Below, in pieces: positions 758 to 64,000 of a stretch of DNA of 64,000 nucleotides. The translations under genes were made by a program, and so were the position numbers. The DNA comes from Hirudo medicinalis (taxonomy: Eukaryota; Annelida; Clitellata; Hirudinida; Hirudinidae), in NCBI GenBank assembly GCA_011800805.1, contig MPNW01000280.1, positions 1-64,000 of the forward strand, in the 5' to 3' direction. The notes under the pieces were generated by a model. The model worked only from the letters and a program-made list of their open reading frames with translations. It did not search any database and was not told the origin of the DNA. Within the stretch, counting starts at the first letter, position 1. Each line of letters starts with the position of its first letter.

Positions 758-3700
758 ATGTCGTCGTCGATTTTAATCCCAGTTTTGATGTGTTCCATCC
801 TGCAATTTGACTTCATTTGCTCGAGAAGTCCTTTTCATCCGTGTGGATACAGCAACACTCCGATAGCAGGACCCACCTGCTTCCTTTACTACGACTGCAC
901 GTTTCCTGGAGAGAAGAATCTCGTGGCATGTCCTCGTTTTTCTGTTTTTGATGGGAAGGCACGATCCTGTGCATCCAATTCTTCTGCATGGATCAGTTGT
1001 TTGATGAATTTGAACACCAACGTCAACATGAATTCTTTGATGAAGCTTTTAAACATTTACATGATGCCGAGAGTTTCAGGAACGATTGAGGACATCTTGA
1101 AAACAGCTGCAAATCTTTCAAAGTTTCAATCTTCCGAATCAAATCCATGTTCTGTGGAGTGTCAGAGAATCTACAATGCCAGCCTGTGCGTCATTCCTTA
1201 CGACAACTGCACTGGTTACTACAACTGCTCAAGTCCTCTTTCTAAGTTCAACTACTGCCAATTCAATGAAAAGTTTGACGAATTCAAAAGACAATGCGTG
1301 GCTCGTGAATATGCTTCGTGTGGGATTGGATCAAGTTACCCTGCAGAAGAGAGAGGCAACAGGAAACTTCGGTTTTGCACAGAAAGTCAGATGACCGAAT
1401 GCTCTCAGTCCGACTTTCCAATGCACGACTGCGTTTATTCGACAAAGTGCATGGCTTACGAGGATTGTTCACGCACGAAAGTCAACAGATACGTCAACTG
1501 CTCGGAACAGCAGAATAACAGCATTTGCAACATCCTCTTCCCGGAGGACTGCGAGAAACTACCAGAACTTTTGGATGAAATCACAAACGGTGTCAGCATT
1601 TCCACTGAGAAATACGTTTTCAGGGAAGGAGACAAAGCAGAATTCACCTGCAACTCGAACTTAACTTCGATTGAACAGTTTGTTTGGTTCCTCAACGAAC
1701 GAGAAATCAATGAGTCGGAAAGAATGAAAATCGCTTCTCAAAGAAACAAATCAGTGCTATTCGTCAGCCCAATGCTCGTGCAAGACTCTGGTGATTACCT
1801 GAATCATACATTTTTATTGCAAATCTTATTTTTTTATGTAACATTCTTAACATTGTTATTATTATTATTATTATTATCATCATCATCATCTTTATTATTA
1901 ATAATATTATTATTATTAATCACGAAGTCATTCCTAGCTCACAACTCAAGTGGTCCTATTCAATTTGATGGCACACAAAATAAGAGTCACATTGCTAAAA
2001 TTATTTTAACCCACGATTTGTGAGTGAATATTTGTATATTTTTATTTCAGGATTATTTTGAATGAATATTTGTACATTTTTATTTCAGGATTATTTTGAA
2101 TGAATATTTGTATATTTTTATTTCAGGATTATTAACATGTTCAGTGGAGTACGGCCATAATTTCCACCAAACTGACTCCATCCACATCCTCACCTATCCA
2201 CTTCCTAACGTGACCATCAGTCCCTCATTTCAAACTCTGGTCAAAGGATTCAACAGTAGCACTCAATTTACCTGTAATGTTACCTGGTCCACATTTTATT
2301 TAGACAAGGCGATCGAAATTAACTGGTTCGTAAATGGAGAACAGGTTTCATCCACTGGTGAGTAAGAAGTGATTGATGGATCTTTGCCTTGCATCAGGGA
2401 ACATATCGGTCAATTGATGAGTGCACGATGTGCTTATTAGTGGACTATTTGGGATCCAATTATGCAGAGATGAGTTGAAATTGTCCAACACACGCAAACC
2501 AGCTGATGCGGTTAAAAATATCTGCCAGTGAATAAATATTTGCCTATCGAGAGATGATGCCATATTTATCAGCCAATGAAATCTAAGTTTAAATTGCTGG
2601 ATATTATTTGTTTTTCAGACTACAGTGAAATTACCCGACAAAATTTGACTTTCAACGAATCTTCGGATGTCAAGTGCTGCGCGAACATGTCACAAACTGG
2701 ACTCGTCTTCAGCCAAACAAGCCACGTGTCCTTCTTAACAAACGAAGGTTTGAACTTATAACTTGTATAATTGGATGTTGTTACGACTTTTACAATCAAT
2801 CACGACATGAATAATATTCATTAACAACTTTTGCAACGTTTATTCGTGAAGCAAAAAAAAAATGAGGAGCATGTTCTTACAACATTCATTCAAGTTTTTC
2901 AATCGCTCCTTACTTGACTATTATTTATTTCCACTTGAAAATGAATTCAAAATGAAATAAAATGAATGATTTCTGTTTTGGCAGACATTCCAGTGACAAA
3001 CTGTAAGTTGGAAACCTTGGGTGGATTGACATGGGAATCCACAAAACCAGGAGAGAACTTCACTCATCCTTGTCCATCACTTTCCTCAGGTTGTCATCTA
3101 CTCATGCGTGACTGCCTGTTTTGTTATCGTTATCACCATCGATATCGCAGTTTAATTACTATCATCATTATTTTGTTATTAATGAATGTTTATAATGTTT
3201 GACGATTAATAGGTTGATTAATGCATGAATGAATGAGTGAATGAGTGAGTGAGTGAGCATCAAAGGAATGGTAAACTCCGTTAAACCAACATAACATTAT
3301 AACATCACGATACCACAACTTTCAGGTAGGCTTGTGAGAAGTTGCCTTCATGGAGGAAATTGGGGAGAAATAAACGAAGATGAATGCTTCAGCGTGAAAC
3401 TTATCCAAATTTCTGATCTTGTGAGTAAACCGTCAATCATGATAATGATCATCATTTGTTTATCAGAATTGTAACTAATGGTTACCAGTGTACACAGTTA
3501 ATATTAGCAACAGTTCTGCAAAAGTGGAATTTCTTTGTTGAGCATGTTATCAACAATGCTTTCAAAGTTGTCATAAATGGGATCATTTAATAAGTGTTAA
3601 TAATATTGTTGAGTAATTAATTAAAATATAATTAGTTACATAATAATAGTTGTAACGATGTTTTTATAATTATATATTTTAATATTAAAAACAGTTGGAT

Positions 3701-4673
3701 GCCTTGAGTTTAATGCTTGTGAACTCGACAAAGTCGTTGAAACTGGCACAACTGACGCAAGAATTGCCAAACATCAGCAACACCAACAACAAACTCATCC
3801 TCAAAAACATGGCGACCATCTTGTACAGAATATCGTCAATCAGAAAGAATTCTGTCGACGAACATAACGAGGCCCGAATGGAGACTCAGGTTTAATTACT
3901 GATGCAATATAATTGCAATGATGTTGTTATTGTTACATAACATTACAACAATAATAAATAATACATTAATAAATAATAATTTCATAAACTAACGACCAGT
4001 CAATAATAACTGATTGAATGTGCAGAATTAATTTCAGAATGTTCTCAACTCCTTGGTCAGTGTTGTCCAATCAAAAGCCTGGAATAACAACTCATCCTTG
4101 GTTTGTTTGGACATTTCGTCTTTCGAGCAGACGCATTTAATAGTTTTATAACTAATTTTATTGTTTAAATTTATTAAAATTTACGATTTAATGAGTAATT
4201 ATGCCGCACAATTATATATTTACATATTTTATTGAACAACGCAAACTAATCAACTAAAGAATGTGAAACATAAACTCAAAAAATCAGCTCAAGGATTAGT
4301 CCTAAGGGGTTGACATCCTGTTATTTGTTCAACCCACCTCATATTCTACAATAAGTTTTCAGTCTATCAGGTTATTTGGTTATCGATGGAAAGAGTATTT
4401 TAACGTTGCGATGTAATATTATAATTAATTGTTTATTATGAAAATTATAATTTTAACAAGAATTACGGCCAAGAAAATAACAAAATACTACCTCGACTAT
4501 TTATTGAAAGCATTAATTCCAAATAAGTTGAAATATTAAGTGACAAATTGTGTATTTACAGCGACTTTCCTCCCTGGAACTGATTGAAACGATCAACGTT
4601 TATTCATCGCATCTTTGGACCGACAAGACTTTCACTTATTCTTTCCTTGGAAACAAACTCGGTGAATTATTGC

Positions 4674-4748
<75 letters not shown>

Positions 4749-7700
4749 CGTCTTGATTATTGTTCTTTGTTAATACATTAGTAAATAATATGAAATATAA
4801 ATAATAGGGCATAAATAGAAACACAAATAAAATATTTTTCAAACAAAAATATTTGCTTTTGAAATAAAAATACTGTAAATAATAAAAGATCATGAATATT
4901 ACAACATCATCAAATAAATTAAATAGAAATAATTATTCATTCGCCATTTAAATTACTCGTGAATTTATTTCCGATAAACTGAGAACATTTGTTGAATCAG
5001 AATTTGAAAGAAGTTTAATGGAGGTTCACGAGGATGAAAACATTTTCAATCAAAACTTACACAAAAACCGAATCAAAGTCTTCTACAAACGACAAGATCA
5101 TACGCTCAGTAAGATTGTGTTTACTTATAATAAATTTTATTGTTTTGTTTCAAAAATAAATAATATTATTTTATTGTTATTGTAATTATTTTAATCGCAT
5201 TACATTCCATTTAATATTTAATCATTTGAAAAAATATAAACGATAGAAGTTGATAAGAAATAAATTGTTGAAAAATAATCTTATCTGATGTTGTGGAGTC
5301 CTCGTTGGTACAACTGCTGAAAGCACTTCAACATCTCGACCAACTTCTTGACGACATGAAATTCATGTTTTATTAAATAAATTATGAATAAGCAACTATT
5401 TTAGAACTTTTTATTAGCAATATTAAAACATAAATTAACAAATGTATTTAGGATAATTTATTACAATTATGGACGTTTTAATGCAAATTCTTATTTTAAA
5501 CTGAAAAACAAAACAATAAAACAAAACTGAACAAAACTGAACTGAACTGACAGACAGAACTTCAACATTCCCCATTGGAGCATCAATTGTGCAGAACCTG
5601 GCAAATGTTTTGACGGACGACGAGTTAGTAAATATTATTGTAATTGTTATTAATATCATAAATAATATTTATTCACTTCAAATGTAATAATTAGTGAATT
5701 AATATTAAGAAGATAATAAGGCGATGATGATGATGATGATGATGATGATGACACACAGCAATTCATCAAGAATAAATTCCGATTTGCTATCTTTGGACAT
5801 CATGACTCCAATGCAGGATCAACTTGTTACTCAATTCACAATTCAACATTTGCAGGTTCAAATTACCTATTAAATATGTTTTTTAATCCTTCAATTATTA
5901 ACAGTTTATTAGAAATATTATTTGGGATATAATAACAAATAACTTCTCAAACATTAAGGTTTTGCCAGAATTCATCCCTCATTGTGTCTTTTGGTTTTTC
6001 AATGACACGTTGGAGTGAGTAACCCTTACTAAGTATTAATCACTAAGCTGATCAGATTGCTACTGCTGATGATGATGATAACGATGACGACGATAATGAC
6101 GATGATTGCAGTGGCTACTGGTCGAGTGAGGGCTGCAAACGGAAGGAGTGGAACGTGACTCACACGACATGCGCATGTTCTCACCTCACCAACTTTGCAA
6201 TCCTCTTCAGTCCTTCCAATGCTGTCCGTTGACAAATATTGTTATTCTTTTACTTATTTCGATTATTTTAAACACTTACGTAAATATTATTCTAGTCGCC
6301 AATGCGTCATTATGCAATTTTTAATTATAAGTATTTATCAATTCTTTCAAACTTGGAAATTATGTTTTATATTATATAATCATATATATATATATATGTT
6401 ATAATATGATATTATTATTAAATATAATTATGCTACAGTCCTAGTGCAATTATAAAAGTGCCATTGTAAAAGTTGCTGCAACTGTTGTTGTGTTGTTGTG
6501 ATGTTGTGATGTTGTGTTGTTGTGATGTTGTGATGTTGTGGTGTTGTGATGTTGTGATGTTGNTTGTTTTGGTGGTTGTTGGCGTGGTCGTTGTTTCAGT
6601 AGTCGTTGGAGTGGCTGTTGTTGTTGAAACGGTAGTCGTTGGTGAAGTTGTTGTTGATGCGGCTGTCGTTGGTGTAGTGGATTTAAAAGTTGTTGTAGTG
6701 ATAGTTGGTGTTGTTGTTGCGGTAGTCGTTGTTTCGGAAGTCGTTGGAATGGTTGTTGTTGAAACAGTAGTCGTTGCTGTAGTTGTTGTTGTTGGTTCGG
6801 CTGTCGTTGGTGTAGTTGATTTCATTGTCGTTGTAGTGATAGTTGGTGTTGTTGTCATTGTAGTCGTCGGTGAGGTTGTTGTTTTGGTGGTTGTTGGCTT
6901 GATCGTTGTTTCGGTAGTCGTTGGAGTGGTTGTTGTTGTTGTTGAAACTGTAGTCGTTGGAGTGGTTGGTGTTGTTGTTGAAACGGTAGTCATTGGAGTG
7001 GTTGGTGTTGTTGTGATGTTGTGATGTTGTGATGTTGTGTTGTTGTGATAGGATGAAGAACACAGCGTGATTCTCGGCATAATTTCTATGGTCGGATGCA
7101 TTATTTCCATTGTGGCTCTCTTCCTGACGATCATACTCTACGTCTTCAAGTGGAGGTGATGATGATGATCTCTGCTATCATTGTAATTATAAATATTATT
7201 ATTATTATTATTTATTTTTATTGCTGTTACTGTTCTCACAATTGCAATAATATAACAAGTTATTATAAACAAATAATATGAATGTGGATGTTGATAATGA
7301 CGACGACGATGATGATAATGAATATTATTATTATTATTAATTATATTATTTATGGTAATGCGATTATAAATATTAATGTTAATTAATATAACTAATTAAT
7401 GCAGTTAATATTGTTGAATAAATATTGTTGAATAATAGAGTCTTGAAGTCAAAGAGAGCAGTGTTACTCGTGAGTTTGTGTGTGTCTCTCATCATCGCCA
7501 ACATCATCTTTCTGGCAGGTGTCGACCAAACATCGAACCCCGTGAGTTTTCAGAATAAATTTCAATTTCACTGACAAAGTTGAATAATTTTAGCCAAGTT
7601 TTAGTTGAATGTCAAAGTTGATTACCGGAGAAAATGATGGTCGACTTAATATTTAACTGTCTGATGAAATAATTAATTCATTAATGTTCATTCATATTCA

Positions 7701-9749
7701 TTAACATTAATTAATATTCATTGACACAAGTAAAAATTCATCAACGTAATTAATGTTTATCAATACTAGTTAATATTCATTGAAACTAATTAATATTCAT
7801 TAACACTAATTAATATTCATTAACACTAATTAGTATTCACTGACACTAATTAATATTCATCAACACGAACTAATACTCATTAACACTAAAAAACTTTCAT
7901 GAACACTAACTAATATTCATTAACATTAATTAACATCATTAACACTAATTAATATTCATTAATTATGAATTAATATTCATCAACACTAATTAATATTCAT
8001 TAACACTAACTAATATTCATTAACATTAATTAATATTCATTAACACTAACTAATATTCATTAACATTAATTAATATTCATTAGGGCGGATGCACAGCAGT
8101 GTCGGCACTCCTTCACTACTTCTTCTTGACCTCCTTCTTCATGATGCTGATGTTGGCTCTTCATCTTTTCATATCAGTCTTCTTCGTCTTCTTCACCATC
8201 ACCAAAAAACACGTCATCATTATGATCACTTCTGGATGGCGTGAGTATCATCATCACCTTTACCAGCGTAAACATCATCATCATCACCATCGCTATCATT
8301 ATCATTATTACAATCATGATCATAATTACAATCATCGTCATCAGCATCTGCACGTGAGTAATTGTTAATTAATAATTCACAGTTCTGCCCCTAATCACAG
8401 TATCAATATCTCTTGCTGCTACGAAGCTTCGTGGTTACGGTAGTGACAGAAAGTAATAGTTATTAATATTTAATTATTAACTATTAATTATCATTCAATT
8501 TATTTAAAATATAAATTTAAAAATATATATATATATTAAGTGACTTATCATGATTTCATGTTGACTTCATAAGCTGTTGGCTCTCTCTGGAGTTCGGAGT
8601 TTTGTGGGCCTTCGTGGGACCTGCCTTGGTCATCATTATTGTGAGTGTCATCACCATCACCATCACCACCATCATCGTCGTCGTCGTCGTCATTATCAGC
8701 ATCGCAGTCACCTTCTCCATTATTACATTCTTTAATGCCATTATAAGCAGCGACACCAATAACAATAACAATCTTAATGACGTGAATGGGATTAATTAAT
8801 AACTGTAATTATTTTTTAAATTTGTGTTTATTTTGTTAAATAAATTTTATATATTAAATATATGCTTTCCAATTTGAATACGTTTTTATCTCCAGACAAA
8901 TATGACCATCGCTATATCGGTCCTCGTTAAAATCTGCCAAATGAAGATTTCGCGAATAAACTTGAAGAGATCAAAGTGGCTGTAAGTCCTTCATTCAAAC
9001 TTATATAATTTAAGTATCTGTTATTTGCAATATAAATATTCACTAAAATATTATTATTCAGTATTCAATTTAATTATTTACCCTCTAAAAACTTCTTAAT
9101 AATATGATGTAATATTCCCATCAAAACTCTCAAATCAACATCAATGTTGTCAATTCCTAATAAATCATATCTAATATTTAACACCAGCAATATTAATTGT
9201 TATCTTTCTACTTTTGGAATAATTTTCTTTCATTTCCCCTTTTAAGGTCAGCAGCACAGAACCTTGTGATCCTGAATCCAATTCTTGGCTTAACATGGAT
9301 TTTTGGAGTTTTGTCCGTCGATAAGGAACTGGTCGTGTTTCAGTACATCTTTGCCATCGTTAACTCACTACAGGTAAGCCATCTTAAATCGCAATGTTCA
9401 TTTACATGTTCATGGTAACATTTCGACATTTGAATCGAAATATATTCGTAATATTTTAATAATTCTACAGGGACTCTTCATTTTCCTACTTCACGGAGTT
9501 TGCCTCAAGAAGAGTCTGTCCACTCAGACGAAAAAACTCAAGGACGGCAAAAGGCTGCCAGAGAAATTTTCTTCATCTTCTTCTTCAAAAGCTCGAATCC
9601 CAGTTCAGGACAAGAGCAAGTTGAAGTCTGACGAATATTACATCCTCAACAACGGAGCATCTTCTGAAACGTCAACTTACAAACCGTCAAACATCTCATC
9701 TTACAGCTTCTCCACGGATGTGACTAATTTCTCTGAAGATAAATATTAA
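758..9749 (+). CDS. Adhesion-type GPCR with chitin-binding (peritrophin) ectodomain
   Basis: Twenty exons give a phase-consistent 1106-aa receptor: 758-1790, 2127-2357, 2619-2747, 2985-3089, 3326-3420, 3695-3889, 4038-4100, 4562-4661, 5001-5108, 5554-5623, 5759-5855, 5959-6014, 6112-6223, 7052-7155, 7439-7541, 8084-8244, 8574-8640, 8896-8981, 9247-9373, 9471-9749. After a signal peptide come three cysteine-patterned modules (about residues 27-82, 132-190, 208-272) with the C-x5-C-x9/10-C-x8-12-C spacing of CBM14/peritrophin-A domains. Ig-like segments follow, then a hormone-receptor-like module (W and paired Cys in exons 4-5), a GAIN region and a GPS motif ending CACSHLTNF, where the family self-cleaves between L and T. 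Seven hydrophobic helices follow, with a Cys at the start of TM3, LWAFVGP in TM4 and GLTWIFG in TM6. The tail is Ser-rich. Seen: domains and splice phase. Inferred: chitin or glycan sensing at the cell surface. Confidence 0.9.
2025..2138 (+). repeat. 38-bp tandem triplication that includes the 3' splice site
   Basis: Three near-identical 38-bp units begin at 2025, 2063 and 2101. Each contains TTTATTTCAG, so there are three equivalent acceptors ending at 2050, 2088 and 2126. Only the last keeps the Ig reading frame across the exon junction of the GPCR; the first two would add 76 or 38 bases and shift the frame. Confidence 0.85.
4675..4748. repeat. (ATT)n microsatellite in GPCR intron
   Basis: Pure ATT trinucleotides for about 74 bases, starting a few bases after the exon 8 donor. 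The poly-Leu, poly-Tyr and poly-Asn reading frames across it are artefacts of the repeat. Confidence 0.95.
6473..7050. repeat. GTTGTT/GTNGTT-rich repeat block in GPCR intron (mucin-like on the minus strand)
   Basis: A degenerate array of GTTGTGAT and GTTGTTGTTG units fills the intron between the GPS exon and the TM1 exon. An N at 6563 shows an assembly join. Read on the minus strand it stays open from 7134 to 6433 (233 codons), giving Thr-rich TTTPTTT-like repeats. The plus strand is also open, as Val-rich sequence. Because both strands are open, low complexity is the simplest explanation, but an antisense mucin-like exon cannot be excluded. Confidence 0.7.
7680..8083. repeat. Minisatellite (about 21 bp, ATTAATATTCATTAACACTA-like)
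   Basis: Roughly 18 diverged copies of a unit close to 21 bp run without a break to the next exon. The last unit ends in ATTCATTAG, which is the acceptor for the TM3 exon at 8084. The repeat therefore supplies the 3' splice site. Confidence 0.85.
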
Positions 9750-18347: not shown

Positions 18348-20733
18348 ATGTCTGCTGATGAAAAGTCACCAATAATTGAGGAGGAGGACAAGGAGGGGAG
18401 ATGCGGGTGTTGCTGTTGCCTTGGTTTTCTGGTGAGTTCTCGATGATGATGACGATGATAATGTAAACAAATCATTATCTTCTTGCGTTGGTAAGAATTA
18501 ATTGCAGTAATTAGTTAGAATTTTAATGATTTGCTACGTTTCATCGTCTTGAAATGTTGTGATTAATTCAACCCGATGTGTCTGATGGAAATATTAATTT
18601 ATTGGTTGGTTATTGTTAATTATTTGTAATTTGTTATAAACCATATTTTCATTTAACAAATAAGTGAAATAACCATGTAAGTCGGCAGATCTCCATTCGA
18701 TATCATCGTTGTCATCAGCACCCATTGCATTCATCATCATCATCGTCGTCGTCGTCGTCATCATCATCATCGTCGTTGTGGTCGACCATAATTAAATTAC
18801 TATCCACCATCATCTTCATCGATTTATTGTTTTAACTTTGATTTAATCGTCGAGAATAACATCTTTAGGACCTCATTTGGTTGTAATTAAGAAATTGAAA
18901 TAACGTTCAATTTCTTTCAACAACTCTTCACTTATTCTCAAGAACAATTCCAACAAGCGTACCAAGTCATCGCAACATCCAAGCACCAGCACCCAGCCAG
19001 TCACAAGTCAGCACTCTTGTTGTACTGTTGAACAACAACAGGCAACAAATTTGTTGTTGCAACAAAACATTCTTCAACCACAAATTGCAAAATTTCTGCT
19101 CAGTTCAACACAACTTGTCGCCGATGATCCTGTTACTGAACTGAGTGAGAAAATAGGTAGTTGTTTTTATAAAATGGTTTAAGTTTGTTATTGTTGTGTT
19201 AATAGTTATTTACACTAGCCGTAATTAATTACGGACATTTCACATCGCCATATTTAAATTATTTATTTGAACGTTTCAAATGGTGATAAGATTGAGTGAT
19301 AACAGATAAAAATGATTCGAAACATTTAGTGAAACAACATTTCAAATGAAAGTTAATAAAACCTGCAGCATGATCCTACAGTTTGCATCGACCATTTGTT
19401 ACATAACAACATTTATTAGCGCACATTTTAACCATTACCCGCCGAATGTACCATTACGTACAAGTGACGTCACGCACCTGGGTCAGGTGTTTGCGACGAA
19501 TTGTGACAGGAAGGAAAATGATTTTTTACTTCGAATGAGGAAATCGAAAGCGATTAAAACGTGATGACGTCATTACACGGTCCATTTACATATCAACGAT
19601 ACGTAATAACCACGGCTAAACACCGACATCAATAATAAGTAGTCTTTTAAGTGCTGATTAACTGTGAACATTCCATTTCAATTTTCCTTCTTTTTAAGAT
19701 TATATTCTGCTGAAAATCATCTTTTTGAACAACACATAAAAGTTATTTTGTTTAAAACGGAAGGTCGAATCCAATTCAGTGTAAAATACGAGGCCCACAT
19801 AAAAACACTGACCCTCAAGATCATTCGAGCCACCAACTTGGAAGCCAAGGACTTCGGAGGCACAAGTGACCCTTACGTCAAGGTCACCCTCCTCCCAGAC
19901 AAAAAGGCCACACTCACCACACGAACCAAGCACAAAAACTGCAACCCGACGTGGAACGAAAGTTTCGCTTTTGAAGGTTTTTCCGGATTAACTTGGAAAT
20001 TTGAGTCGCTTTAATTTCGTTTTCAATTAGAAATCTCCTAGAATGGGAATTCTATACACAACGAAGATGAAGATGTTTATTATAACTTAAAAAATTATTA
20101 TAAATAAATTATTTGATAATTAATTAATCAATTAATTCGTCGCAGATTATCCGTTCGATAAAATTCAGCAAATGATTCTCTTCATGGAAGTCATCGATTA
20201 CGACAGATTCACCAGAGACGATCCAATAGGGGAAGTGGAAATCCCCCTCATGAACTTTGACCTTCTCGGGGGTCAGACTGTCTGGAAGAACCTTCGATCG
20301 TCACAAAAACGCAGGGTGGAAAATGAATTGATGATGTCATGAATTGATGACGTGTTGCATTCAAATCAACGAAGAGGTAATTAATTGTTTATCAAATTGT
20401 CATCAAGAAATCAATTTGACAGGGAAGACTTGGTGACTTGGGTCTGACGCTGCGCTACGACAGCCCACTGATAAACGTGAAGGTCGTTCAGGCGTGCAAC
20501 CTCAAAGCTAAGGACATCAACGGAAAATCTGGTAAATTTTTTTGCTCCTGCTTCACGAAGCCACATCCAACTTAGACCAACAACACAAACTTAGTTAACT
20601 CACAATTTTATTTGTTAAAATCTCTGCTTCTAATAAACTGCACGTGCGCTATATAAATGCTAAAGAAGGAATGATAGATGTCATCATCACCATCACTATG
20701 TCGATGTATATAATACGTGCAACAGTATTAACT

Positions 20734-20798
<65 letters not shown>

Positions 20799-22931
20799 GT
20801 TGTTGTTGTTGCTGTACACTGAAAGATCATGAGGAAGATAATTACCCTCATGAGTATCCATGTTTTGTTCGCCCTTTTGAGCAGTAATTGCTGGTTCTGT
20901 TAAAAATAGATCCTTACGTGAAGATCTGGTTGTTGATGGATGGAGTGAAACGAGATAAGAAGAAGACCTCAATTAAGGAAAGGAACCTCAATCCTGAGTT
21001 TAACGAGAGTTTTACTTTCAATGTGCCTGCTGATAAAATAAGGTGGTTAAACATATTTTATTATTTGTATTGTGTGATACATATATTTGTATTGTGTGAA
21101 ACATATATTTGTATTGTGTGATACATATATTTGTATTGTGTGATACATATATTTGTATTGTGTGATACATATATTTGTATTGTGTGATACATATATTTGT
21201 ATTGTGTGATACATATATTTGTATTGTGTGATACATATATTTGCATTGTGTGATACATATATTTGTATTGTGTGATACATATATTTGTATTGTGTGATAC
21301 ATATATTTGCATTGTGTGATACATATATTTGCATTGTGTGATACATATATTTGTATTGTGTGATACATATATTTGCATTGTGTGATACATATATTTGCAT
21401 TGTGTGATACATATATTTGCATTGTGTGATACATATATTTGTATTGTGTGATACATATATTTGTATTGTGTGATACATATATTTGTATTGTGTGAAACAT
21501 ATATTTGTATTGTGTGATACATATATTTGTATTGTGTGATACATATATTTGTATTGTTCAATACTTACATTTGCATTAATTGCCATGCTTTAATAATTAT
21601 TAAACCTGAAAACAGATAATAATAATAACAACAATAATAACAACAACAACAACAATAATAATAAGAAGAAGAAGAAGAAGCAAAAGAAGAATAAGATGAA
21701 TATTATACCTTACCCCTGTCCAACATCGTTAAGAACTTCGACGTGTCTTTTCACCAAAACGCGGATGACACGAGCTTTTATTCTGTCCTCTCCAACCACA
21801 GTGTCCCCGAACAACTTGACAATCTGCGTAAGTGCACAGATGCCATTAACGACTGGCATCTCGTCAATTTTCTTCAACTCAACCCGCAGAAATCCAAAGT
21901 TATGTTTATCGGCACACCCACACACCTCAAGAATCTATCCCCCCCCATCTTCAATAAAAATCGCTGGCACTATTCTTCCTTCTTCTTCCACTACCCTAAA
22001 ACTCCTCGACCTTTGACTCCCACCTCAGCTTTAAACAGCACGCCATCTCTGTAATAAAATCCTACAACCATCTCATCTGGGCTATCCGACATGTCCGTCC
22101 GTTCCTCTCTGTCGACACAACTTCTGCTCTTGCACAGTCTTATCCTCTCTAAACTACTGAAACTCCCTTCTCTACGGTGCTTCTTACTTAGCTATCCACT
22201 CCCTTCAGCGCACCCAAAATAATCTAACCAAACTCGTTCTCCTCGATCCCAGCCTGACCAGCCCTGAATGCCTGACGCAACTGCACTGGTTGCTTATACA
22301 CCTTCGCATCATCTTTAAAATATCATTAATAATCTATCATACTCTAGCTACATCCTATCCACCCTATTTCAATCATGCCATTAACCGCCGCCAAACCCCT
22401 GACCACCTTTGTTCATCCTCCGCAATTCATCTGCACCAACCAGTCCATAGATCATCCATCGTCAATCCAGGCTTCACCTATGCCTCTTCAAGCGTCATTT
22501 GAAGACTCATCTATTCAAGATAGCATTAAACTGAGAACCAAGGCGCCTCTGACATTACGCCTTCGACGCCATATAAATGAACTATTATTATTACATTATA
22601 TGATATTATAATAATGTTATAAGTGTATTAATTATTATTATTATTATTATTATTATTATAAGTACATTATTATTAGTATCATTATTGAATTGTAACTTTT
22701 ATTATCATCATCTTACTAATATTACTTCTCTACGTGATCTGCATCCCATCAAGGTCTGCCAGTTTGCTTGTTTCAGTCATGGATTACGACAGGTTCGGTC
22801 GAAACGAACTCATAGGTCAAATCATCCTTGGTGCCAAAACATCTCCTGAGGAGGTCAAGCATTGGAATGAAATGTTCCAGAAACCACGACAGGACATATT
22901 CCAGTGGCACACGTTGAAGACTTTCAAGTAG
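18348..22931 (+). CDS. Synaptotagmin-7-like Ca2+ sensor with tandem C2 domains
   Basis: Seven exons: 18348-18431, 18943-19156, 19764-19976, 20146-20315, 20423-20531, 20910-21042, 22754-22931; 366 aa. C2A starts GRIQFSVKY and has [12 protein letters not shown] and [13 protein letters not shown], so all five Ca2+-ligand positions are acidic or Ser/Thr. C2B starts [12 protein letters not shown] and has [12 protein letters not shown] and [12 protein letters not shown], with Glu at the last ligand position where Asp is usual. The end carries EVKHW, KPRQ and the WHTL motif typical of synaptotagmins; both C2 domains resemble Syt7 most. The N-terminus is only a short acidic segment with a CGCCCC cluster, probably palmitoylated, then a Gln/Ser/Thr-rich linker. 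No transmembrane helix is seen. The chosen ATG follows an open frame reaching back to 18174. Expected role: Ca2+-triggered membrane fusion. Large last intron holds a minisatellite and a LINE. Confidence 0.9.
20740..20809. repeat. (ATT)n(GTT)n microsatellite in synaptotagmin intron
   Basis: Pure ATT units turning into GTT units; creates spurious poly-Leu and poly-Asn reading frames. Confidence 0.95.
21062..21556. repeat. 22-bp minisatellite, about 22 copies
   Basis: Tandem units of ATACATATATTTGTATTGTG plus TG, highly uniform. Copies vary at one T/C position (TTGTATT or TTGCATT) and at GATAC/GAAAC; one GAAAC unit lies near each end of the array. All three minus-strand frames are open through it because three 22-bp units make 66 bp, so the long open frames there are repeat artefacts. 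It lies in the last intron of the synaptotagmin gene. Confidence 0.95.
21616..21695. repeat. AAT/AAC/AAG simple-sequence block
   Basis: Mixed AAT, AAC and AAG trinucleotides joining the minisatellite region to the LINE fragment. Confidence 0.85.
21730..22590 (+). mobile_element. 5'-truncated, decayed non-LTR retrotransposon (L2/CR1-like) fragment
   Basis: Plus-strand remnants of a reverse transcriptase: [11 protein letters not shown] is the catalytic ADD region, followed by [18 protein letters not shown] and, after frameshifts, [19 protein letters not shown] and [15 protein letters not shown], the order seen at the C-terminal end of L2/CR1-type LINE polymerases. Several stops and frameshifts separate these blocks, so it is dead. 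The 5' end is truncated at the simple-sequence block; the 3' end runs into ATT repeats. The fragment sits inside the synaptotagmin gene, in the same orientation. Confidence 0.8.
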
Positions 22932-40000: not shown

Positions 40001-41496
40001 GCATTGATTGATTTTCCTCTCCATTTCCTCCACCGACGGCAATCCTATTTCGTATATGGTGAGTGGTCAGAGCAGCCTCGGCAAGAGAACGAATTACAAA
40101 AGCCAGATTTTGAAATTGCCCTGAAGAGGCGTTCTGGCAATTCCATTCAGTCCATCCGACATTTTGCTAACCGTGGCAGCCTCTTGATTTTTGTCACGGA
40201 ACAACTCGTCAAAAACTTTTCCAAGGCTCTTTACCGGTTCTTCTGAGACATCGGGATGCGCTGTCCTCCGACTGTGAAGTATACGTCATTGCGAACATTC
40301 CCCCTGGTTAGGGAGAGACTTCGTGATTTCGCAGGTTTGAGAGCAGGACGGAGTAGATAGTTGAGCTTGTCGAGGACTCTTTGGACGATCTGCTTCCTGT
40401 TGAAGGCTATTGTGGTGTCGTCCATGAACGCCTTTATGGAAGGCATGCATACCCCACTGCCCATGCGCGCCTCGGGAATTCCAGCTCCTACTGCATTCAG
40501 AACAATATGCATGGCAAGTGCAAAGAGAGATGGAGAAATGGCACATCCCATGGCTATGACAGAGAATGCAGAGGAATCCAGCCTGTGGCGCATTCTTTCA
40601 TAGAAAAACGCATAACAAATCCATAATACATAATAATACAATATGCATAATATATCCTAACAACATGTTAACCTTTGATCACTTTTAACTTCCATCAAGG
40701 CATTCCAATCCAACGTGCCATGTCAGAAGGAAGGATCGTGGTGGAGTACACTTCGGTTCAGAAAGGTGTTCCAGAGACGACAGCAGTTCCCCTAATCACG
40801 GTGAAGAAAAGGATCGACAGACAATACGTCATCACTGGGGCACTCGATCCTCGCACCGCTGAGAGGGTGGATGTGAGTGAAGCCCTGAAAAGGGGACTCA
40901 TTGACCCACAAACCGGAGAGTTTGTGAACGATGAGAAGGGCGGCCTGAGGACGCCAGAGAGGGAGGCGGTCGAAGACGGGTGGATATTGGCTCATTTCGA
41001 CAATTCAAGTCCGACCTACGAAAGCGAGACATTTGCAGTTGTTGCAGTTTACGACGACAGATTCAACTATTACACTTCCTTCATGCAAGCCGTTCGAAAA
41101 GGCCTCCTGGACCCGGGCACTGGAAATTATATCAGCTCGAAGAGCGGGAAAAGAATTTATGCGGCAGACGCCATGAAGAGGGGCTTGATAAAAGCTCAGA
41201 AATGTCCGAACAACATTACTGAAACGGAAATATTCAAATCTGCATTGAAGTCTTTCAAAGATAGCAAAAGACTCGAGCTGTTGAGTCCATCACTGAGCAG
41301 CACAGGTGTCCAGCAAGTTAACCAGCCAACCTGTGTCGATGTGGCTCCCTCCACTTCAGTCGTAACCAATGGCAACATCTCAGATCCCTCCACGCCCCCT
41401 CTAGACACCCCTCCTCCCCTTAAGCACATCGATAATCACGTGACATCACCTCCCTTTCCCACTTATAGCAAGAAAACTGAACAGTCGATCATATAA
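29707..41496 (+). CDS. Compact plakin-family cytolinker (SH3 plus plakin repeats)
   Basis: Exons: 29707-29727, 31288-31350, 31824-31952, 32721-32867, 33546-33608, 34693-34784, 35102-35207, 35336-35519, 35853-35911, 37135-37250, 38306-38420, an exon ending 39238 (start 39058-39070 uncertain), 40700-41496; about 690 aa. Spectrin-like helices (exons 2-4) lead into a plakin-type SH3 spread over three exons: LTAVCSM, KEGEELQI, NWLKVRNVHGKEGFLPAL and then IPTPDNNAI. More helices follow, then plakin repeats (VDPRTGDRVAF..AVSEGIID, LDPRTAERV..ALKRGLIDPQTG, AVRKGLLDPGTGNYI). Plakins link intermediate filaments, actin or microtubules to junctions. No calponin-homology domain and no coiled-coil rod are seen, unlike most plakins; the first exon supplies only seven residues, so upstream exons may be missing. 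The tail is Ser/Thr/Pro-rich. Confidence 0.85.
29817..31287 (+). other. First large intron of the plakin gene
   Basis: Contains a 172-codon open frame (29817-30335) without recognisable features and a (GAT)n stretch near 30895-30985. I treat both as intronic. Confidence 0.5.
34138..34205. repeat. (ATC)n microsatellite in plakin intron
   Basis: A run of about 11 ATC units, continued by degenerate ATC/GTC units. Confidence 0.9.
35497..35751. repeat. Apparently exact 127-bp duplication flanking an N: probable assembly artefact
   Basis: 35497-35623 and 35625-35751 read the same, including the last codons of plakin exon 8, its donor and the following (GAT/GAC)n run; a single N at 35624 separates them. 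Equal length, identical content and the N suggest two overlapping contig ends that were not merged. Only one copy should be used in the gene model. Confidence 0.85.
36951..37010. repeat. (ATT)n microsatellite with assembly N nearby
   Basis: About 20 ATT units in a plakin intron; a single N at 36940 lies ten bases before. Confidence 0.95.
37255..37372. repeat. GTTGTTATTATTATTCTT minisatellite
   Basis: Six or so imperfect copies of a short TTCTTGTTGTTGTTATTATTA-like unit directly after the donor of the plakin exon ending at 37250. Confidence 0.8.
39340..40641 (-). mobile_element. 5'-truncated non-LTR retrotransposon with reverse transcriptase remnant
   Basis: Minus strand, inside the last plakin intron. 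The 40641-40231 segment contains AMGCAISPSLFALAMH and the catalytic FMDDTT. It continues with VKSLGKVFDELF, and 40042-39443 contains KWLGLPSEISSIALY and LPLRSIVEEYKISK followed by a basic tail. These blocks are the usual order of the C-terminal half of a retrotransposon polymerase lacking its N-terminal part. Stops between 40231 and 40042 show that it is dead. Orientation is opposite to the host gene, so it contributes no plakin exon. Confidence 0.85.

Positions 41497-50185: not shown

Positions 50186-64000
<13,815 letters not shown>

Follow-up and report, generated by a model that had tools for sequence, protein, structure and literature searches.

A Hirudo medicinalis adhesion G-protein-coupled receptor gene with diverged CBM14-like modules, and two paralogous loci with CBM14 domains

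One gene at the start of contig MPNW01000280.1 of the Hirudo medicinalis assembly GCA_011800805.1 carries two CBM14-like modules that score below the family threshold, and two paralogous loci elsewhere in the genome carry CBM14 domains that score above it. The sequence analysed here, "the window", comprises positions 1 to 64,000 of the contig, and the gene occupies 758-9749 on the plus strand. We read its product as an adhesion G-protein-coupled receptor (GPCR) of the subfamily that combines immunoglobulin (Ig), HRM and GAIN domains with seven transmembrane helices (7TM). Its nearest named relatives are molluscan, the CBM14 modules at its outer tip are predicted to bind chitin, and activation would be by force; we put the probability of this reading at about one half. 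The strongest evidence for CBM14 receptors lies outside the window, in the two paralogous loci. The initial annotation had proposed an adhesion GPCR with CBM14-type modules, and both these loci and module-by-module searches of the window gene lend it support.

The genome searched comprises 133 Mb in 1557 contigs and contains six GPS matches. Two of these, designated C329 and C465, are preceded on the same strand, at no more than 10 kb, by a CBM14 match. Given 12 CBM14 loci, the expected number of such pairs is 0.0027 (Poisson P for two or more, 4e-6); the window gene would be the third of the six GPS loci with CBM14. The C329 model has no stops over 1123 residues and a CBM_14 score of 46.2 bits in two stretches, over the curated Pfam cut-off of 22.1 bits for this family (PF01607). 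The order of its parts is CBM14, a Ser/Thr-rich linker, a second CBM14 spread over two exons, two Ig domains, HRM, GPS and 7TM; the model is without signal exon or C-terminal tail, and a single mollusc query was the sole guide to some splice sites in GAIN. At C465 a CBM14 of 40.8 bits, also over the cut-off, is followed by an Ig-like match of 21.9 bits (under the cut-off of 27) and then by GPS and 7tm_2, all in order on one strand, with an HRM-like exon recognized by eye. This locus was assembled only from the end of GAIN onward, and its CBM14 is linked to the receptor by order and strand.

Between the GPS exon and helix 7, six of the eight exons are identical in length across all three genes (104, 103, 157, 70, 67 and 127 bases), and in each of the other two a single gene departs by three bases (112/109/112 and 86/89/89). 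In the 7TM part, 123 of 256 residues are identical between the window gene and C329.

Two further observations concern the C465 receptor and its surroundings. The exon encoding its CBM14 (L013, about 5550-6150) shifts frame within the module, which could be a one-base assembly error or decay; the shift was left unaltered and the pieces were compared separately. A locus about 80 kb away (L015, C465:190000-199999, at about 4010-4480) matches this CBM14 at 34 of 59 residues and, in the other frame, at 20 of 30. It begins at 4010 with a sequence resembling a signal peptide, contains a single CBM14 and ends in a stop, in two unspliced pieces, and by its likeness to the receptor module this secreted-type locus is a possible exon donor, decoy or soluble relative. 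An EGF domain and a further CBM14 domain that lie downstream of the C329 receptor (L012, 6719-7395) probably belong to another gene.

In the window gene, the cysteine-rich modules lie in exon 1, on the plus strand. Searched alone, module 1 (residues 29-81; 842-1000, within the stretch 830-1000) matched CBM_14 and no other Pfam family, at 14.0 bits (E = 0.055), and module 2 (residues 129-188; 1142-1321) did the same at 17.6 bits (E = 0.0041), both under 22.1 bits. A third cysteine-rich stretch (1370-1567) matched no Pfam family. Modules 1 and 2 both preserve the cysteine frame and, within the C-xx-Y-xx-C core, the Tyr, and the spacing that the initial annotation had read in module 2, C-x5-C-x9-C-x12-C-x7-C, is found at cysteines 151, 157, 167, 180 and 188.

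We compared the modules with a CBM14 profile made from the same genome. The profile represents 20 of its 28 CBM14 places and was run with search filters off; left out were three places with stops (C634, C10:182694 and C18), two of no more than 40 amino acids (C10:173554 and C116:59067) and, to keep the profile independent, C329:108654, C465:114691 and C465:194267. Modules 1, 2 and 3 scored 13.3, 13.8 and 2.4 bits. Full shuffles scored as well in 0, 0 and 42 of 1000 cases, respectively, and shuffles that kept the cysteines in place in 4, 10 and 83 of 1000. A profile of modules 1 and 2, compared by hhalign with 15 of the 20 genomic CBM14s, gave a probability of 84.5% (E = 7e-6, for one comparison); module 3 against the same alignment gave 3.5%. 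By these comparisons modules 1 and 2 are CBM14-related and diverged, and the CBM14 identity of the third is unsupported. Of the three CBM14 modules originally counted, two are thus retained, below the cut-off and ahead of nearly all their shuffles, and the count of three is rejected because the third stretch lacks support from Pfam, the shuffles and hhalign.

A profile built from modules 1 and 2, the modules of C329 and C465 and a single secreted relative matched 16 PDB chains, with CBM14 structures on top. The best were a polyphenol-binding 25 kDa protein (1.7e-12) and a squid beak protein (7.5e-7), followed by chitinases, Der p 23, chitotriosidase and, weakly, tachycitin (0.14); the two respiratory-complex subunits also matched, at 1.2, presumably reflect chance. 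These PDB matches are probably carried by the paralogs.

Several results weigh against the proposed reading for the window gene itself. The profile of modules 1 and 2 alone matched no PDB chain at E ≤ 10, and AlphaFold, given the single sequence of module 2, returned a fold of low confidence (predicted local distance difference test score, pLDDT, 48). CBM14 did not appear at E ≤ 10 when the whole of exon 1 was searched, nor at E ≤ 1 in the full spliced protein; the window contig is not among the 28 genome-wide CBM14 matches (E ≤ 0.001), and a 15-locus frame scan listed no frame of the window gene at E ≤ 5. The match to a CBM14 profile that was anticipated for residues 27-272 therefore fails for exon 1 as a whole; CBM14 matches come, below the cut-off, from the module-wise searches and, above it, from the paralogs. 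Exon 1 used as a query in its own genome matched itself and a weak Ig (E = 0.98), not the CBM14 exons of the paralogs, and in a four-way alignment the window modules do not correspond one-to-one with those of C329. The nearest relative of the gene, P0001 (964 amino acids, encoded on a contig of 2961 bases from source "lgn" that we take to be a transcript), has no CBM14 by Pfam or by the CBM14 profile.

A rival reading accepts the gene as described but holds that its CBM14 modules, through decay, now serve as spacers or bind proteins and no longer bind chitin, leaving the C329 and C465 receptors as the chitin binders, if there are any. Scores under the cut-off in the window gene and over it in the two paralogs favor such decay, and the absence of CBM14 from P0001 suggests that the modules are dispensable in this branch. 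On the other side, both modules retain the cysteine frame and core Tyr, and residues other than cysteine raise their scores above those of the cysteine-kept shuffles. We consider loss of binding a serious rival for the window gene, because its modules are the weakest of the three receptors, and rate its chances at somewhat under even.

The 21 exons of the receptor gene are joined by 20 introns, all GT-AG, with consistent phases and 1128 codons before one terminal stop; the single phase-consistent gene on the plus strand at 758-9749 is as initially annotated, including the end of exon 1 at 1790 and the start of exon 2 at 2127. Exon 1 (758-1790; open frame 725-2023, donor at 1791) begins with a signal-peptide-like sequence, judged by eye, and encodes the two CBM14-like modules, the third cysteine-rich stretch and the first part of Ig domain 1 (Pfam I-set, residues 282-345). 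Exon 2 (2127-2357) holds the remainder of that domain, which in the spliced protein reaches 41.6 bits (1.6e-10, residues 286-360), and the beginning of a second Ig-like domain; its boundaries are the same with P0001 as the query. The second domain, completed in exon 3 (2619-2747), is weak (C1-set, E = 0.024, residues 390-444, below the cut-off). HRM (PF02793; 26.5 bits against a cut-off of 26.2, 8.4e-6) is encoded at 2985-3420 by exons 4 (2985-3089) and 5 (3326-3420).

The GAIN region is assigned to exons 6-11 (3695-3889, 4038-4100, 4562-4661, 5001-5108, 5554-5623 and 5759-5855; overall 3695-5855) from position, exon phases and the alignment with P0001. Its own profile, PF16489, was not reported at E ≤ 1 for the window protein, for which GPS was reported, and scored 1.3e-12 in P0132, a member of the same clade in the tree described below; of the parts originally named, the Ig, hormone-receptor, GPS and seven-helix domains are recovered by Pfam and GAIN is not. 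The GPS motif (PF01825; 52.5 bits, 7e-14) is encoded by exons 12 (5959-6014) and 13 (6112-6223), which together span 5959-6223, with His-Leu-Thr at 6182-6190 followed by TNFAILF. Exons 14-21 (7052-7155, 7439-7541, 8084-8240, 8383-8452, 8574-8640, 8896-8981, 9247-9373 and 9471-9749; overall 7052-9749) encode the seven-helix domain, with the exon lengths common to the paralogs, and the cytoplasmic tail. In the spliced protein 7tm_2 (PF00002) is complete, covering profile positions 4-250 of 250 at 154.9 bits (3e-45). Among the exon-by-exon searches of the genome, which are less sensitive, that with GPS picks up the window contig and those with 7tm_2 and HRM miss it.

It is very improbable that the locus is a decaying pseudogene or a mis-assembly. 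The introns are filled with repeats, and helix 3 (8084-8240) lacks the Glu present in C329 (MLMLALHL versus MLAEGVEL). Against this stand 21 exons without a stop, a G+C content of 0.43 in exons versus 0.27 in introns and a full-length 7tm_2; the helix 3 Glu is also missing from P0001 (MLVISFHL).

Exon 1 is part of the receptor gene, because intron 1 interrupts the first Ig domain: exon 1 alone gives 25.9 bits for this domain, and splicing adds 16 bits. In C329, too, a phase-1 intron interrupts the first Ig domain, close to the second cysteine. P0001 aligns with window residues 267-1075 at 34% identity, unbroken across the exon 1/2 join and into the 7TM domain. A spliced alignment guided by P0001 recovers the boundary at 1790 and the later ones, except the end of exon 5 and the starts of exons 6 and 10; it also includes a spurious small piece at 885-922, and the piece that follows begins at 1489, inside exon 1. 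The suggestion that exon 1 is a separate secreted chitin-binding gene, wrongly fused to the receptor by the gene model, might draw on the existence of secreted-type single-CBM14 genes in this genome (for example, near 194.3 kb on C465) and on the coincidence of window start and contig start, which would place any earlier 5' exons beyond the visible sequence, but it is rejected on the intron-split Ig domain and the continuity of P0001 and is the least probable of the alternatives. The acceptor of intron 1 occurs in three copies in the window at 2041-2133 (TTTATTTCAGGATTATT at 2041, 2079 and 2117), so that alternative acceptors are available.

If the tip does bind chitin, a mechanism can be proposed from what is established for the receptor class. 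Self-cleavage and release of a tethered agonist are general features of adhesion GPCRs. In this receptor the sequence TNFAILF that follows the GPS is presumably the tethered agonist. The CBM14 modules would hold chitin or a chitin-containing matrix, such as cuticle, gut lining, egg coat, or the wall of prey or fungi, and the Ig-HRM part would transmit. The receptor would have cut itself in GAIN/GPS at His-Leu|Thr, and pulling on, detaching or remodelling the bound chitin would free the agonist with its leading Thr, which would then activate the helices and a G protein. The same principle of cleavage and agonist is stated for animal adhesion GPCRs in a survey of social-amoeba GPCRs (PMC10445921).

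We searched sequence databases with the window model (881 matches, the best 120 listed), with residues 1-300 of the coral protein P0029 (12 matches) and with the C329 model (102 matches; only candidates sharing the most words were scored). Among the best 120 of the 881 matches, none that covers at least half of the window model exceeds 35% identity to it. The CBM14 profile, run over the 228 proteins collected, found nine at E < 0.001, all from corals or Nematostella (P0029, P0121-P0127 and P0129). Pfam CBM_14 is over the cut-off in P0029, P0121, P0122 and P0125 and just under it in P0126, P0127 and P0129; the Acropora cervicornis match P0128 has no CBM14 by profile. The records of these Stylophora, Orbicella, Montipora, Acropora and Nematostella proteins carry the names "L4-like", "L3-like" or "D1". 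Over the part searched, P0029 is 82% identical to the Stylophora protein, and its AlphaFold model with nine rows had a pLDDT of 47.

In a 40-row tree of the GPS-7TM part, with an arbitrary midpoint root and weak deep forks, the window gene, C329, C465, P0001 and P0132 form one clade (100/100), within which the window gene stands next to P0001 (99/95). The five cnidarian CBM14 receptors sampled form another (100/99). P0001 has no CBM14 while other genes of its clade do, and therefore either the domain was lost in the P0001 lineage or it was gained separately; the sequence of P0132 begins at the first Ig domain and does not cover the tip. Since the tree sets the cnidarian and the present clades apart, the coral receptors and those described here probably represent two separate gains of CBM14, and a shared origin is rejected, with the weakness of the deep forks in mind. 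We advance only tentatively, as a rather doubtful extension, that direct chitin sensing by adhesion GPCRs may have arisen at least twice, once in the CBM14 lineage described here (three loci, one with a close secreted-type CBM14 twin) and once in hexacorals; animals would then possess a membrane receptor that senses chitin through contact or force.

For comparison, the molluscan receptors of the subfamily (from Haliotis, Littorina, Mizuhopecten and Sinanodonta, named "adhesion GPCR B1-like", "L3-like" or "E3-like") share the Ig, HRM, GPS and 7tm_2 domains and occupy neighbouring rows in the tree (fork 99/86). Where their tips carry extra Pfam domains these are, for example, PF00057, PF01390, PF00431, PF00090 and PF00084 (which we take to be LDLa, SEA, CUB, TSP1 and Sushi), and CBM14 is absent among the listed proteins. 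The hexacoral receptors of Stylophora, Orbicella, Montipora, Acropora and Nematostella likewise place CBM14 at the N terminus of an adhesion GPCR, but they have PA14 instead of Ig and HRM and form their separate clade, which is placed beside ADGRD1 with modest support. The vertebrate ADGRB (BAI) receptors share HRM, GAIN, GPS and 7TM and join the group at 97/92, as judged from one long-branched sequence (Esox); they have thrombospondin repeats (PF00090) in place of CBM14 and Ig. CBM14, or peritrophin-A, proteins such as chitinases, tachycitin, squid beak protein 3 and Der p 23 are secreted; they have the same cysteine frame and core aromatic residue but no membrane receptor part.

Chitin is widely made and met by animals, yet we found no adhesion GPCR with a chitin-binding domain described in the open literature as searched by title and the start of the abstract, with subscription papers and preprints outside its reach. 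The word "chitin" does not occur in the first 300,000 of the 412,533 characters of a 2026 Pharmacological Reviews article (PMC13197933), nor was it found by word search in a 2025 eLife article (PMC12716839) that surveys the GPCRs of organisms closely related to animals. The abbreviation list of the social-amoeba survey cited above includes "type 1 chitin binding domain", a term not met again in the text searched; an amoebozoan GPCR may therefore already have been noted to carry a chitin-binding domain, though of a different family. The earlier statement that no receptor of this architecture has been described holds for the literature searched; sequence collections do contain CBM14 adhesion GPCRs, from corals and Nematostella, with a different ectodomain. 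A family of such receptors, comprising paralogs and matched in corals by a counterpart of apparently independent origin, would make it possible to study, with a defined ligand, how adhesion GPCRs convert force and attachment to a matrix into signals. As a ligand, chitin is cheap, solid and easily presented on beads or films.

Two stretches within the gene lie outside its coding model. Between exons 9 and 10, an open stretch at 5281-5370 resembles a coding remnant or an alternative exon. Intron 13 contains a minisatellite (6433-7137) with periods of 8-138; on the minus strand, an open frame of 234 codons reads as mucin-like sequence rich in Thr and Pro, probably a chance product of the repeat. 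Elsewhere in the window we noted a C2 domain (19658-20011), a tandem array (21021-21589) that is open in every minus-strand frame, plectin repeats (40672-41493) and, on the minus strand at 55820-63354, a dynein heavy chain that was matched by Pfam on 55820-56401 only and whose further extent is taken from open frames.

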